A stretch of 64,000 nucleotides of DNA, from assembly GCF_900129215.1 (NCBI RefSeq), contig NZ_FQUQ01000007.1, positions 186,001 to 250,000 on the forward strand, given 5' to 3'. Below the pieces are notes generated by a model. The model saw only the letters and a program-made list of their open reading frames with translations, did not search any database and was not told where the DNA came from. This stretch comes from Pedobacter caeni. GTDB taxonomy: Bacteria; Bacteroidota; Bacteroidia; Sphingobacteriales; Sphingobacteriaceae. Shown here piece after piece: positions 24,076 through 38,117 of this stretch. Position 1 is the stretch's first letter. Each line of letters starts with the position of its first letter. Both the position numbers and the translations under genes were made by a program.

Positions 24076-24091
24076 TGTTCCACGTGAAACA
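24076..24091. other. parS: parS-like centromere site 1
   Basis: TGTTCCACGTGAAACA is identical to the well-known Bacillus subtilis parS 16-mer bound by the chromosome partition protein ParB (Spo0J). It is in the intergenic region 73 bp before mnmG, a gene that is origin-proximal in many bacteria. No parA or parB gene lies in this window. Confidence 0.88.
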
Positions 24092-24118: not shown

Positions 24119-24134
24119 CGTTCCACGTGGAACA
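24119..24134. other. parS: parS-like centromere site 2
   Basis: CGTTCCACGTGGAACA holds a perfect 14-bp palindrome (24120-24133) and matches the parS consensus core. It lies 43 bp, start to start, from the first site, about four helical turns. A close pair like this supports a real ParB loading site. Confidence 0.85.
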
Positions 24135-24164: not shown

Positions 24165-26027
24165 ATGTTTAAAGAATATGATGTTATAGTTGTAGGTGCC
24201 GGGCACGCTGGATGTGAAGCTGCCGCTGCCGCTGCCAATCTGGGATCTTCGGTATTGCTGATCACCATGAATATGGAAACCATCGCACAGATGAGTTGCA
24301 ACCCTGCAATGGGCGGTGTTGCGAAAGGTCAGATTGTGAGAGAAATTGATGCAATGGGTGGGTACTCCGGAATCATCAGCGACAAGACTACACTACAATT
24401 TAGAATGCTTAACCTATCCAAAGGTCCGGCGATGTGGAGCCCAAGAGCTCAGAATGATCGCAAAAGATTTGCTGAAGAATGGAGACTTGCTTTGGAGCGC
24501 ACACCCAATGTAGACTTCTGGCAAGACATGGTGAGTAGTTTAGTGATTAAAAACAACACGGTAATTGGAGTAAAAACTTCCCTGGGTATCGAGATCAAAG
24601 GCAAATCTGTTGTCCTTACAAATGGTACTTTCCTCAATGGCCTAATCCATATCGGAGAGAAAAAATTTGGAGGAGGCAGAACTGCGGAAAGAGCCGCAAC
24701 AGGAATTACCGAGCAGTTGACAGAACTCGGTTTTGAAGCCGGCAGAATGAAGACAGGTACCCCACCCCGAGTTGACGGAAGGTCTCTGAATTATTCTTTA
24801 ATGGAAGAACAATGGGGCGATGAAAATCCAGGACGATTCTCCTATACCAATGTAGAGCGTCCAACGGAACAGCGCTGCTGCTGGATCACCTATACCAATT
24901 CTGAAGTACACGAAACACTGAAAGAAGGTTTTGAAAAATCCCCAATGTTTACCGGCAGGATCAAAGGTCTCGGTCCGAGATATTGTCCTTCAATTGAAGA
25001 CAAAATCAATCGCTTCGCAGAACGCGAAAGACACCAGATCTTTGTAGAACCTGAAGGATGGAATACCTGCGAAATCTATGTAAATGGATTCTCCACTTCC
25101 TTACCGGAAGACGTACAATACAGGGCACTCACACAAATTCCAGGCTTCGAGAATGCGAAGATGTTCCGTCCGGGTTATGCCATAGAGTATGACTATTTTC
25201 CACCTACCCAACTTGGTCTGACCCTGGAAACCAAATTAATCAGCAATTTGTTTTTTGCGGGCCAGATTAATGGCACAACAGGATACGAAGAGGCTGCTAG
25301 TCAAGGCTTTATCGCTGGAATAAATGCACACCAGAAAGTTAATGATCTCCATGAGCTAATCATGAAACGTTCTGAATCCTATATAGGGGTATTGATCGAT
25401 GACCTGGTTACCAAAGGTACTGAAGAACCTTACCGCATGTTTACCTCAAGGGCTGAACATCGTTTATTGCTTCGTCAGGACAATGCAGATATCAGACTCT
25501 CCCCTATTGGCCATGAGCTGGGACTGATCAGTGATGAACGCCTGGATATTGTCAAACAAAAAGTAGCCAACTCAGATGCCATCGTTGCCTTTGCAAAAAA
25601 ACAGGGTATAGAAATGACCGAAGCAAACGAAAAACTGGAAGCGCTTGGAACGAGCACACTGAATCAGAATGTAAAGATATTCAGCTTGCTTAGTCGTCCG
25701 CAGGTAGGCATAGAGGACATCAGAGAAATCAGCAAAAGCTTTAGAGACTATATCAGCACTTACGATAAAGAAACTGTAGAACAGGCAGAGATCAAAATTA
25801 AGTACGAGAGCTATTTTGAAAAAGAACAGGAGATTGTAAATAAAATGCAAAAGATGGAAGATAAAGACATCAATCCAAATTTTGATTATTCTCAATTGGT
25901 ATCTTTATCCAAAGAAGCCAGAGAGAAGTTATTGAAGATCAAGCCAAGAACTTTGGGCCAGGCATCAAGAATTTCGGGAGTTTCGCCTTCTGATATATCA
26001 GTTTTAATGGTTCATATCAGTAAGTAA
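24165..26027 (+). CDS. mnmG: tRNA uridine-5-carboxymethylaminomethyl modification enzyme, FAD subunit
   Basis: Partner of MnmE in forming cmnm5U34 on certain tRNAs. The 620-residue protein has the FAD-binding [10 protein letters not shown] (11-20), the CNPAMGG segment, the family motif [10 protein letters not shown] and the C-terminal helical MnmE-binding domain (about 555-620) ending LMVHISK. Length is typical. The parS pair lies directly upstream. mnmE is not in the window. mnmG (gidA) is often near the replication origin, which agrees with those sites. Confidence 0.98.
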
Positions 26028-26170
26028 AATATAATAACTTGATAATGAATTAGTTAGAAACAAAATATTACACTTTTTAACTGACTCATTTAAAAGAGAT
26101 ATAAGAGAGTTTTAATTTTTTTTAATGCTATCTATCAAAAACAGTAATAAATTAAACACAGCGCATATAA

Positions 26171-28315: not shown

Positions 28316-29902
28316 CTAAAAAATTGTATCTGTTAATTGTTCTGAATGGTTAGGATAATCGGTAGTAAAATGCAAACCTCTGCTTTCTTTTCTCGCCTTG
28401 GCAGACTTGATTACGATATATGCTACCTGGATGACGTTGCGCAACTCACAAAGTTTTACCGAAACTTTATTCGCTTTATAAAAATCTTCTGTCTCTTCAT
28501 GAAGTAAAAACAGACGTCTCATCGCCCGGTCTAATCTAAAATCTGAGCGTACAATTCCTACATAATCACTCATTAATTTCTGAGTTTCCCTCAGGTTATG
28601 GGTCACTAAAATATCCTCATCTGTCTGGGTAACCCCATTGGCATCCCATTCCGGAATGTCATCTGGAATGACACTATTTTTAAAAACATTTACGGCATCC
28701 TGATAAATGCGGTGTGCAAAAACGGGTGCTTCCAATAGAGAATTTGAAGCCAAACGGTTTGCACCATGAAGCCCTGTGGAAGAACATTCCCCGCAAGCAT
28801 ATAAATTTTTGATCGAAGATCTGCCGTATTCATCTACCAAAATTCCGCCACACATATAATGAGCTGCTGGTGTAACCGGTATTAAATCCTTAGTCATGTC
28901 TATACCTATAGATAGACACTTGGCATAAATGTTCGGGAAATGAGCTAAAATATCGCTCTTTTTGCGATTGGTAATGTCCAGATAAACGAAGTCTTCTCCC
29001 GATTTTTTCATCTCAGAATCGATCGCTCTGGCCACAATATCTCTTGGTGCAAGGGAACCACGCTTGTCATATTCATACATAAATTCATCCCCGTTTTTCC
29101 TCCTCAACACTCCTCCGAAACCACGTACAGCTTCCGAAATCAGAAAGGCAGGATACTCTCCTGGATTGTATAAAGCAGTCGGGTGAAACTGAATAAATTC
29201 CATATTCCTTACTTTTCCTTTTGCACGGTACACCATCGCCATTCCATCTCCTGTAGCAATTACAGGGTTTGTCGTGCTGCTATACACATGTCCCGCTCCA
29301 CCGGAAGCCATGATAGTCACATTAGCTAAGATCTTTTCCACATCGTTAAGCTCTGTGTTAAAGGCATATATACCGTAACAGTGGATATCTTCAGAACTCT
29401 TATCCACATGATGCCCCAAATGGTGCTGAGTAATTAACTCTAAACAGAAGTAATGTGTTAATATCTCTATGTTTTTGTTCTCATGAATCTGTTTTAATAA
29501 CACACTCTCAATCTCGTAACCTGTGACATCTTTATAGTGCAAAACGCGGTGTTCTGAGTGTCCTCCTTCTTTTGCCAGGTCATAAACTCCCGTCTGATCT
29601 TTATCGAAATTTATCCCATAATCGATGATTTCCTGAATTCTTTGGGGCCCCTCTTTCACCACAATTTCCACTATCTCTCTGTCACACAGCCCATCTCCCG
29701 CAATTAACGTATCTTCGATATGTTTTTCAAACGAATCATCTTTATCCACAACAACAGCTACACCGCCCTGGGCATATTTTGTATTTGACTCATCCTCGTT
29801 TGATTTTGTAACGATTAATACCTTACCATGCTGAGCTGCTTTTAATGCAAAGCTTAAACCCGCAATACCCGACCCTATTACTAAAAAATCTACTTTTCTC
29901 AT
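28316..29902 (-). CDS. nadB: L-aspartate oxidase
   Basis: First step of NAD synthesis from aspartate: FAD-dependent oxidation to iminoaspartate, which NadA uses. The 528-residue protein has the dinucleotide motif VIGSGIAGLSFAL (8-20), the YAQGGVAVV segment, and the FQFHPTAL and GLHGANRLASNSLLE motifs. nadA lies divergently 400 bp away across an AT-rich gap. The gamma-CA gene follows within 3 bp. The closely related succinate dehydrogenase flavoprotein is excluded by the nadA neighbour and the gene's motifs. Confidence 0.97.
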   Translation of the reverse strand: MRKVDFLVIGSGIAGLSFALKAAQHGKVLIVTKSNEDESNTKYAQGGVAVVVDKDDSFEKHIEDTLIAGDGLCDREIVEIVVKEGPQRIQEIIDYGINFDKDQTGVYDLAKEGGHSEHRVLHYKDVTGYEIESVLLKQIHENKNIEILTHYFCLELITQHHLGHHVDKSSEDIHCYGIYAFNTELNDVEKILANVTIMASGGAGHVYSSTTNPVIATGDGMAMVYRAKGKVRNMEFIQFHPTALYNPGEYPAFLISEAVRGFGGVLRRKNGDEFMYEYDKRGSLAPRDIVARAIDSEMKKSGEDFVYLDITNRKKSDILAHFPNIYAKCLSIGIDMTKDLIPVTPAAHYMCGGILVDEYGRSSIKNLYACGECSSTGLHGANRLASNSLLEAPVFAHRIYQDAVNVFKNSVIPDDIPEWDANGVTQTDEDILVTHNLRETQKLMSDYVGIVRSDFRLDRAMRRLFLLHEETEDFYKANKVSVKLCELRNVIQVAYIVIKSAKARKESRGLHFTTDYPNHSEQLTDTIF

Positions 29903-30302
29903 TGAATTAAAGCTATTTCCGTTACTTTGTTAACAACGTTGATATAATTGTTAATTTCTTGTCTAAACATTTAGAACAAATAATTTTGAATGTTTAAATC
30001 TAAGCTAAAAAGGCAATTTGCCACAATATTTTAAGTTATTTTTGAGCAACTTTGCATAGTTTATTAACTTTTTACACACACATTAAGAATAAACATATTT
30101 GTATGGATAAGTTTTGGAGGGAAAAAATATAATGCTGTAAATCAGGCAGTATTTATCATAAAAAAGTCACATAAATGTGGATAACTTATTAATAACTCAA
30201 ATAATCGACTAAAAAAAAGTTTTTTACAAACGTTATTAACACACTAATAAACAATAGAAATCTATTTATATTAAATAATTATAATTTATTGAACTGTTGA
30301 AA
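29903..30302. other. oriC: Candidate replication origin between nadB and nadA
   Basis: A very AT-rich, gene-free 400 bp. It contains one perfect DnaA box (TGTGGATAA, 30176-30184, the complement of TTATCCACA). Three boxes have one mismatch to TTATNCACA: 30070-30078, 30102-30110 (complementary strand) and 30233-30241. Four boxes within 172 bp beside A/T-only tracts resemble a bacterial origin, and the parS pair is only 6 kb away. A DnaA-regulated promoter region for nadA/nadB is the alternative. Confidence 0.45.
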
Positions 30303-31295
30303 ATGGATACCTTAGAGGAATTAAATAGAAAAGGTTTTGTTGATGAAAAGATCGATCCGACACTTGATCTTTTTCTGGAAATCGAAAAATTAAAAAAAGA
30401 GAAAAACGCAATTGTACTCGCACACTACTACCAAGACCCTGATATTCAGGATATTGCAGATTACATTGGGGATAGTTTAGGCCTTTCGCAAGAAGCTGCA
30501 AGAACTGATGCCGAGGTGATTGTGTTTGCTGGAGTACATTTTATGGCGGAGACGGCGAAGATTCTTTCTCCTGACAAAAAAGTGTTGCTTCCGGACTTCA
30601 AAGCCGGCTGCTCTCTGGCTGATAGTTGTCCGCCACATTTGTTCAGGAAGTTTAAAGAAAAATATCCTGATCATGTAGTGATCACTTATGTGAATTGTAC
30701 TGCTGAGCTGAAGGCTTTGAGCGATATTGTTTGTACCTCTACCAATGCGGTACAGATTGTAGAAAGTCTTCCGAAGGATACAAAGATCATTTTTGGTCCT
30801 GATAAAAATTTAGGTGCCTGGGTGGCTAAAAAAACAGGCCGCGATTTAGTCCTTTGGAACGGAGCCTGTATGGTGCACGAAATATTTTCAAGAGAGAAGA
30901 TCACGAAATTGAAAGAACGTCATCCAAATGCCAAATTTATTGCCCATCCGGAATGTGAGGAAGCAGTATTACAAATGGCCGATTATATTGGATCGACCAC
31001 AGGATTACTGAAATACAGCATCAATAGTGATGCACAGGAATTTATTGTGGCCACGGAAAGTGGGATCATTCACCAGATGGAGAAGGCAAACCCAACGAAA
31101 ACCTTTATTCCTGCGCCACCAAATAATAGTTGTGCTTGTAATGAATGTCCGTATATGAAAAGAAATACCCTGGAGAAGTTGTATTTATGCTTAAAAAATG
31201 GCTCTCCTGAAGTAACTGTACCAGCGGATATCATTGTTAAAGCAAGAAAACCGATTGAAAGAATGCTGGAAATTTCCGCAGCATTGGGTTTATAA
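30303..31295 (+). CDS. nadA: Quinolinate synthase
   Basis: Condenses iminoaspartate with dihydroxyacetone phosphate to quinolinate using a [4Fe-4S] cluster. 330 residues. The likely cluster ligands are Cys103 (in [11 protein letters not shown]), Cys189 (WNGACMVHE) and Cys282 (NECPYM). [20 protein letters not shown] is also diagnostic. I use the ATG at 30303; a TTG two codons upstream is less likely. nadC is not in the window. Confidence 0.97.
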
Positions 31296-37181: not shown

Positions 37182-38117
37182 ATGAATTTGACAGAAAGCG
37201 AAAGACCTGAAAAAAGTCCTTACCTACAATTACTTAGCCTTGGTTTGTATGCCATAGCAGGTGTATTTGTAAGTTCAATCCTTGCCCTTGTGGTTTTATA
37301 TTTTATGTACGGCGAGTTTATGAATTCGGATTGGCTGCTGACTACTGATCCAAAATTCGTATCGGTTAACCGGGTAATGATTTCTTTACAACAGATCGGA
37401 TTATTTCTGGCCCCGGCCTTATTCCTCGCATTGGGGGAAGGAAAAAGAACAACTGTTTTTTATGGATTTAAACCACCAAAAACAACAATGGTCTTATTGG
37501 TCATTGGCATTATGGCTGTTTCTATGCCTATTCTGGAATTCAGTATGCAGCTCAATCAGAAAATGGTCTTGCCAGGGTTTTTGAAACCTCTGGAACATTG
37601 GATGAAAACTCAGGAAGATGCGGCAATGGCAACTACTGAAGCACTCTTAAAAATGGATCATATCGGCACTTACCTGCTTAATATTGCATTGATAGCAGTA
37701 TTGCCAGCGGTGTCTGAAGAGTTAATGTTCAGAGGAGCAATCCAAAGATCATTGGGAAGAATGTTCAACAACCCTCATCTGGCAATCTGGGTGGCAGCTT
37801 TTGTATTTAGTGCCATTCATATCCAGTTTTATGGATTTTTACCGCGCTTTTTATTGGGAGCAGGTTTTGGCTATATTTATTTCTGGACGAAGAGCTTATG
37901 GTATTCCATCTTTGCCCATTTTTTAAATAATGCTTATGCAGTTACCGCAGCATGGTATATGCAAAAAAACAATATACCTTTGTCTGAATCAGATAAAACA
38001 ACCTATTTTCAATGGTATGGTTATATCATCAGTGTGGTTTTAACCTTTCTGATATTTAAATATTTTAAAAATAAAGCATCAAAAGATGATGGAGAACAAC
38101 TGGATAAAAGTTTTTAG
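37182..38117 (+). CDS. CPBP-family intramembrane glutamic endopeptidase
   Basis: A 311-residue multi-pass membrane protein (about seven hydrophobic segments) of the CPBP/Abi family, related to Rce1. Catalytic motif EELMFRGA (Glu179, Glu180, Arg184), then FSAIHIQF and FAHFLNNA supply the conserved histidines. Start chosen at the ATG at 37182 (MNLTESERPEK); the frame extends upstream to 37074 but that part overlaps the divergent dusB. Substrate unknown. The next gene overlaps its 3' end by 32 bp. Confidence 0.9.
   Translation: MNLTESERPEKSPYLQLLSLGLYAIAGVFVSSILALVVLYFMYGEFMNSDWLLTTDPKFVSVNRVMISLQQIGLFLAPALFLALGEGKRTTVFYGFKPPKTTMVLLVIGIMAVSMPILEFSMQLNQKMVLPGFLKPLEHWMKTQEDAAMATTEALLKMDHIGTYLLNIALIAVLPAVSEELMFRGAIQRSLGRMFNNPHLAIWVAAFVFSAIHIQFYGFLPRFLLGAGFGYIYFWTKSLWYSIFAHFLNNAYAVTAAWYMQKNNIPLSESDKTTYFQWYGYIISVVLTFLIFKYFKNKASKDDGEQLDKSF

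Follow-up and report, generated by a model that had tools for sequence, protein, structure and literature searches.

The 400-bp gap between the divergent genes nadB and nadA is very probably the chromosomal origin of replication (oriC) of this Pedobacter, a soil bacterium, and from the sequence comparisons presented here we put the probability of this reading at about 0.93. An origin at this site had been proposed in the initial annotation, and the proposal gained support because contig skew, parS, the position of dnaA and the one-contig relatives all agree. The window, i.e. the whole stretch of 64,000 nucleotides that was analysed, corresponds to G000:C16:186001-250000 in a genome of 7.83 Mb and 22 contigs. 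Its relevant features are the following (window coordinates):

24077..24090, no strand: parS-like site GTTCCACGTGAAAC, matching the pattern GTTYCACGTGRAAC
24120..24133, no strand: parS-like site GTTCCACGTGGAAC, matching the same pattern
24165..26027, plus strand: mnmG (gidA), PF01134; known oriC neighbour in other bacteria
28316..29902, minus strand: nadB-like flavoprotein on the left flank, L-aspartate oxidase by domains and neighbourhood
29903..30302, no strand: proposed oriC, AT-rich gap separating divergent nadB and nadA
30070..30080, plus strand: overlapping box-like pair TTTTACACA / TTACACACA, from the TTATNCACA scan
30102..30110, minus strand: DnaA-box-like TTATCCATA, one mismatch, same scan
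30176..30184, minus strand: perfect DnaA box TTATCCACA, one of 91 in the 7.83-Mb genome
30233..30241, plus strand: box-like TTATTAACA, same scan
30263..30290, no strand: A/T-only run of 28 nt beside the boxes, read from the sequence
30303..31295, plus strand: nadA (quinolinate synthase) on the right flank, PF02445

The nadB-nadA gap and its DnaA boxes

On the left the gap ends at the start of nadB (29902, minus strand), on the right at the ATG of nadA (30303, plus strand). It had been described as AT-rich, free of genes and placed between divergent genes, and both the coordinates and a contig-wide GC scan agreed with this description: the lowest GC content over 400 bp on the contig (22.25%; 368,698 bp scanned) was found at a stretch starting at 29891, which overlaps the gap. 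The gap thus has the AT-richness expected of a bacterial chromosomal oriC. The A/T-only tracts reported beside the boxes were recovered as the 28-nt run listed above, a candidate part of an unwinding element. No RNA genes were detected in the window (ARAGORN 0; Rfam 0 at gathering scores).

Box sites were defined as matches to TTATNCACA with at most one mismatch. The initial annotation had described a cluster including one perfect DnaA box within 172 bp, and a rescan bore this out by returning five sites in the gap, at 30070 and 30072 (plus strand, an overlapping pair), 30102 (minus), 30176 (minus, perfect) and 30233 (plus), which together extend over 30070-30241. When a C was required at the fifth base, two of these were left, the perfect site at 30176 and the one-mismatch site at 30102. 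Dinucleotide shuffles of the gap (n = 2000) gave a mean of 1.08 sites against the five observed (p = 0.003), and p = 0.0045 for the perfect box alone. Among the 67 contig gaps of at least 150 bp, a crude, ORF-based set, the nadB-nadA gap ranked first with five sites and the runner-up held two. The cluster beyond chance that is expected of an oriC is therefore present in the gap. Over the whole 64-kb window there was no excess (77 boxes vs. 72 expected); it is the local clustering that carries the signal. Genome-wide, TTATCCACA occurred 91 times vs. 59 times for the reversed control. A DnaA-trio scan returned runs of at most four trinucleotides whose central base is A (or T), close to the perfect box; AT-rich DNA readily yields such runs.

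Two more perfect boxes lie inside nadB, at 29400 and 29742. Both fall on Val-Asp-Lys codons. They are weak evidence and were rejected as support for an origin; the box at 29742 recurs in many relatives, yet it was left out because of its overlap with these codons.

An alternative explanation is that the gap is a divergent nad promoter only, with boxes that regulate nadA and nadB, and that the origin lies within ~10-15 kb, for example beside mnmG. We consider this very improbable. AT-richness is usual in divergent promoters; promoter-like matches in the gap, however, showed no excess over shuffled sequences (3 vs. 3.0). As to mnmG, its 3' end in the window (25835-26160) has a less dense group of four sites, each with one mismatch, and the gene is the neighbour of the predicted oriC in two Flavobacteriaceae, as given in the accessible parts of the papers: Mariniflexile litorale, where the site is explicitly away from dnaA and the labels of the figure legend are swapped (PMC11278836), and Algorimicrobium (PMC12843772). 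The gap before mnmG, however, contains none of the box sites returned by the scan.

Strand composition, parS and dnaA

The distant GC-skew minimum that the initial annotation had named as counter-evidence was absent from the whole 369-kb contig, and both the minimum and the strand-corrected break fell within the window. Cumulative GC skew on contig C16 formed a clean V, descending from ~34 kb, bottoming out at 216-228 kb and rising thereafter (contig coordinates). The lowest points were at window positions 37239 (-4547), 30081 (-4544) and 41755 (-4541); since these differ by at most 6 counts, raw skew is unable to choose among 37, 30 and 42 kb. To locate the break, third-codon-position skew was modelled by weighted regression with gene strand and a step as predictors, using the ORFs at 80-345 kb of the contig. 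The best step was located at window position 30,000 (1-kb grid), with a step of +0.236 and a strand coefficient of -0.0006. The bootstrap interval was 14,000-40,000 (300 bootstraps, 2-kb grid); mnmG also lies inside it, in favour of an origin beside that gene, and the densest box cluster within it is the nadB-nadA gap (5 in 400 bp). Beyond C16, skew was sampled on contig C15 and in one stretch of C22.

A pair of parS sites had been placed ~6 kb from the gap, and the sites at 24077 and 24120, just before mnmG, proved to be the sole matches to the relaxed pattern GTTYCACGTGRAAC in 7.83 Mb; a reversed control pattern had zero matches in the genome. In all seven relatives compared (7/7), every pattern site lay within 10 kb of nadA, and the same was found in a second set of genomes (5/5). 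The gap thus lies in a parS-bearing domain, as expected of an oriC.

The initial annotation had noted that Bacteroidota origins often lie away from dnaA; here the two dnaA genes are on contigs C18 and C22. The gap lacks the adjacency to dnaA that marks dnaA-linked origins. For those of the B. subtilis type the same initiation chemistry is expected; they differ from the Pedobacter gap in that neither dnaA is on its contig. If the nadB-nadA gap is the origin, DnaA encoded elsewhere in the genome would bind the box cluster at ~30070-30241 and drive melting of the neighbouring A/T-only DNA, the replicative helicase would then be loaded to give two divergent forks, and ParB at the two parS sites 6 kb off would help to separate the new origin copies.

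The dnaA pair itself consists of full-length genes (L002, G000:C18:258333-261818; L003, G000:C22:6848-10333) whose proteins are 85% identical; a single perfect DnaA box lies upstream of each gene. In 12 relatives a single strong DnaA match per genome was found. The second dnaA of this assembly may be a paralog or the trace of a second strain.

Two box-rich sites on contig C15 were also considered. The first (L022:9753-10540; G000:C15:645753-646540), a stretch of ~0.7 kb following nrdA, consists of head-to-tail degenerate boxes in ~11-nt steps, with four TTATCCACA and one TTATTCACA. The second (L021:9246-10770; G000:C15:393246-394770) has six perfect TTATCCACA in a mirror layout that places two closely spaced boxes on either side. 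It is extremely unlikely that the true origin is either the array at C15:645.8-646.5 kb or the stretch of six boxes at C15:393 kb. The array is far richer than the nadA gap, with 20 boxes of no more than one mismatch each in the 1.5 kb that follow nrdA (15 of them within 500 bp), and the boxes at 393 kb are all perfect. However, skew was positive in all 11 sampled 20-kb stretches (300-820 kb of 1,119 kb), C15 has zero sites of the parS pattern, the array is missing from all 29 further nrdA loci that were compared (two of these being only distant matches), and the 393-kb boxes sit within a 2121-aa ORF, which presumably encodes a protein resembling alpha-2-macroglobulin. Both clusters were rejected as the origin for want of a skew switch in the 11 stretches and of parS. 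The array after nrdA is possibly a DnaA titration site. A further pair of perfect boxes, with starts 12 bp apart, is found near a contig end (L023:8302-8322; G000:C22:316302-316322).

The nadA locus in related genomes

Within the family, nadA was present in 59 of 61 genomes; loci were built for 30 of these, and one more brought the set to 31, including the locus studied here. A divergent NadB motif was found in 31/31 of the Sphingobacteriaceae loci examined and in 0/26 of the scored loci of other families in the class (58 loci were taken, and L085, in which no NadA motif was found, was left out). The 31 family gaps contained 18 exact boxes vs. 1.2 expected from shuffles, and 112 boxes with at most one mismatch vs. 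31 expected; the loci are related, so these are not 31 independent tests. Some Pedobacter gaps were poor in boxes at the one-mismatch level, with none in L037 and L099 and one each in L091, L092 and L095.

The nearest named relatives were ten Pedobacter loci with 89-92% NadA identity. Alignment of their gaps with that of the window revealed conserved blocks along the length, within which the box letters drift. The perfect box at 30176 is perfect in one of the ten (P. helvus), and at the site of 30102 all ten other rows read TATTGATAA, with two mismatches. The position and the presence of sites are conserved as expected of an oriC, and the individual sites drift. The boxes of the gap are weak, few and drifting.

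In 16 Sphingobacteriaceae loci, 47 boxes were counted in the 450 bp before nadA vs. 10 at the mnmG 3' end, which was box-free in 11 of the 16; the 3'-end sites that favoured mnmG in the window are thus not kept. Box density was 10.4/kb before nadA vs. 1.9/kb in other gaps of 27 loci with long flanks (out of 80), a comparison valid for Sphingobacteriaceae and Chitinophagaceae only, since the loci were hand-chosen from these two families and by flank. A box-rich gap is still found at nadA in Chitinophaga L109, where a SurA/PpiD-like gene takes the place of nadB on the left, which argues against a role confined to a divergent nad promoter. Gynurincola L152 points the same way by resemblance, with a left neighbour like that of L109 and mnmG near on the opposite side.

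A wider tabulation took in 57 of 80 named loci. Nine loci of Saprospiraceae/Lewinella type had 0-1 boxes in the kilobase preceding nadA, and the pattern thus ends short of them. In two loci from another family of the class, the 0.5 kb upstream of the NadA motif contains 10 (L073) and 12 (L077) exact boxes and is a very strong candidate for an origin. In L123, from a Chitinophaga metagenome-assembled genome, extra box-rich gaps lie within 10 kb of the nadA gap, with 11 exact boxes outside it.

Skew changed sign at nadA in three one-contig relatives (G026, G054 and G048). In G026 (4.40 Mb; nadA at 317.6 kb) four sampled stretches to the left were clearly negative and the stretch ending at nadA had a skew of -0.03. 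Between nadA and 2.1 Mb, nine stretches were positive or ~0, and the sign flipped again at ~2.5 Mb, opposite nadA. In G026 the local skew minimum coincided with the first base of the NadA match; in G054 it preceded the match by 13 bp and in G048 by 44 bp. These matches start 4-8 residues into the query. Far from nadA the skew of G048 was irregular. The strand-composition switch expected of an oriC is thus found at the gap, and it is weak in two genomes: G007, with weak and noisy skew, switched at ~0.88-1.10 Mb (nadA at 0.955 Mb, local minimum 15 kb off), and Chitinophaga sp. E66, weak and noisy overall, had a local switch near nadA. The distance between dnaA and nadA was 0.7 Mb in G026 and G054 and 1.5 Mb in G048; in two genomes of genus g14 it was only ~10 and ~40 kb.

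Pooled third-position skew adjoining the gap was negative on the left in 20/20 loci and on the right in 0/20, a contrast confounded with gene strand because nadB and nadA are read in opposite directions. Further out on the left, negative skew was found at 14/20 loci (-6.4 to -2.1 kb) and 12/20 (-10 to -6.4 kb), with mixed signs in the bins beyond -10 kb (4 loci each); on the right it was found at 2/20 (+1.2 to +5 kb), 3/20 (+5 to +10 kb) and 5/11 (+10 to +15 kb). For plus-strand genes the pooled value was -0.049 at -6.4 to -2.1 kb, on the mnmG side, vs. +0.138 at +1.2 to +5 kb; for minus-strand genes the same bins gave -0.042 vs. +0.016. The plus-strand contrast places the switch to the right of mnmG. 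An origin beside mnmG was rejected, the DNA before the gene being box-free, the 3'-end sites unconserved and the skew of the wrong sign.

A broader scenario is that a nadA-linked, dnaA-unlinked origin with weak, fast-drifting boxes is older than the split between Sphingobacteriaceae and Chitinophagaceae, and that in this strain a doubling of dnaA is accompanied by a private, dense box array after nrdA that soaks up the extra DnaA, datA-like and arisen from scratch. We regard this combination as rather unlikely.

Comparison with known origins and significance

The accessible parts of the literature allow some comparisons. E. coli oriC, between gidA/mnmG and mioC, has DnaA boxes, AT-rich DNA, a skew minimum and a nearby mnmG in common with the Pedobacter gap, which differs in lying between nadB and nadA, ~4 kb from mnmG, and in having fewer and more degenerate boxes (PMC10225481). 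The predicted Flavobacteriaceae origins share with it the phylum Bacteroidota, the mnmG neighbourhood and the agreement with skew; these papers name mnmG, whereas the dense conserved boxes of Pedobacter are at nadA (PMC11278836, PMC12843772). In Elizabethkingia meningoseptica, also of the Bacteroidota, the predicted oriC combines three boxes, none of them more than one mismatch off, with AT-rich elements, and dnaA is ~1.9 Mb away by coordinates; it resembles the Pedobacter gap in its few boxes, AT-richness and distance from dnaA, and the text consulted names no flanking genes and states no link to nadA (PMC8994065). DoriC may contain automated predictions for the Sphingobacteriaceae; some of its entries are wrong according to the available part of a 2026 paper (PMC13342612). 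A literature search, mostly judged without full text, found no publication placing an origin at nadA or nadB, and none on oriC with Sphingobacteriaceae and DnaA or on oriC with Pedobacter and GC skew.

Four of six one-contig family genomes are numbered from within ~1.5 kb of dnaA, and in two of these four a distance of 0.7-1.5 Mb separates dnaA from nadA, where the skew turns. A landmark for the origin made up of the nadA gap and parS ~6 kb off would correct coverage-based growth-rate estimates and likewise analyses of gene dosage and strand bias. The gap would also be a defined fragment for replicating vectors in Pedobacter and its kin, and its weak, drifting boxes at a fixed site would make it a good test of the minimal origin sequence. 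What is new in the proposed reading is a further origin of the known DnaA type, one that would be located at nadA and unlinked to dnaA.
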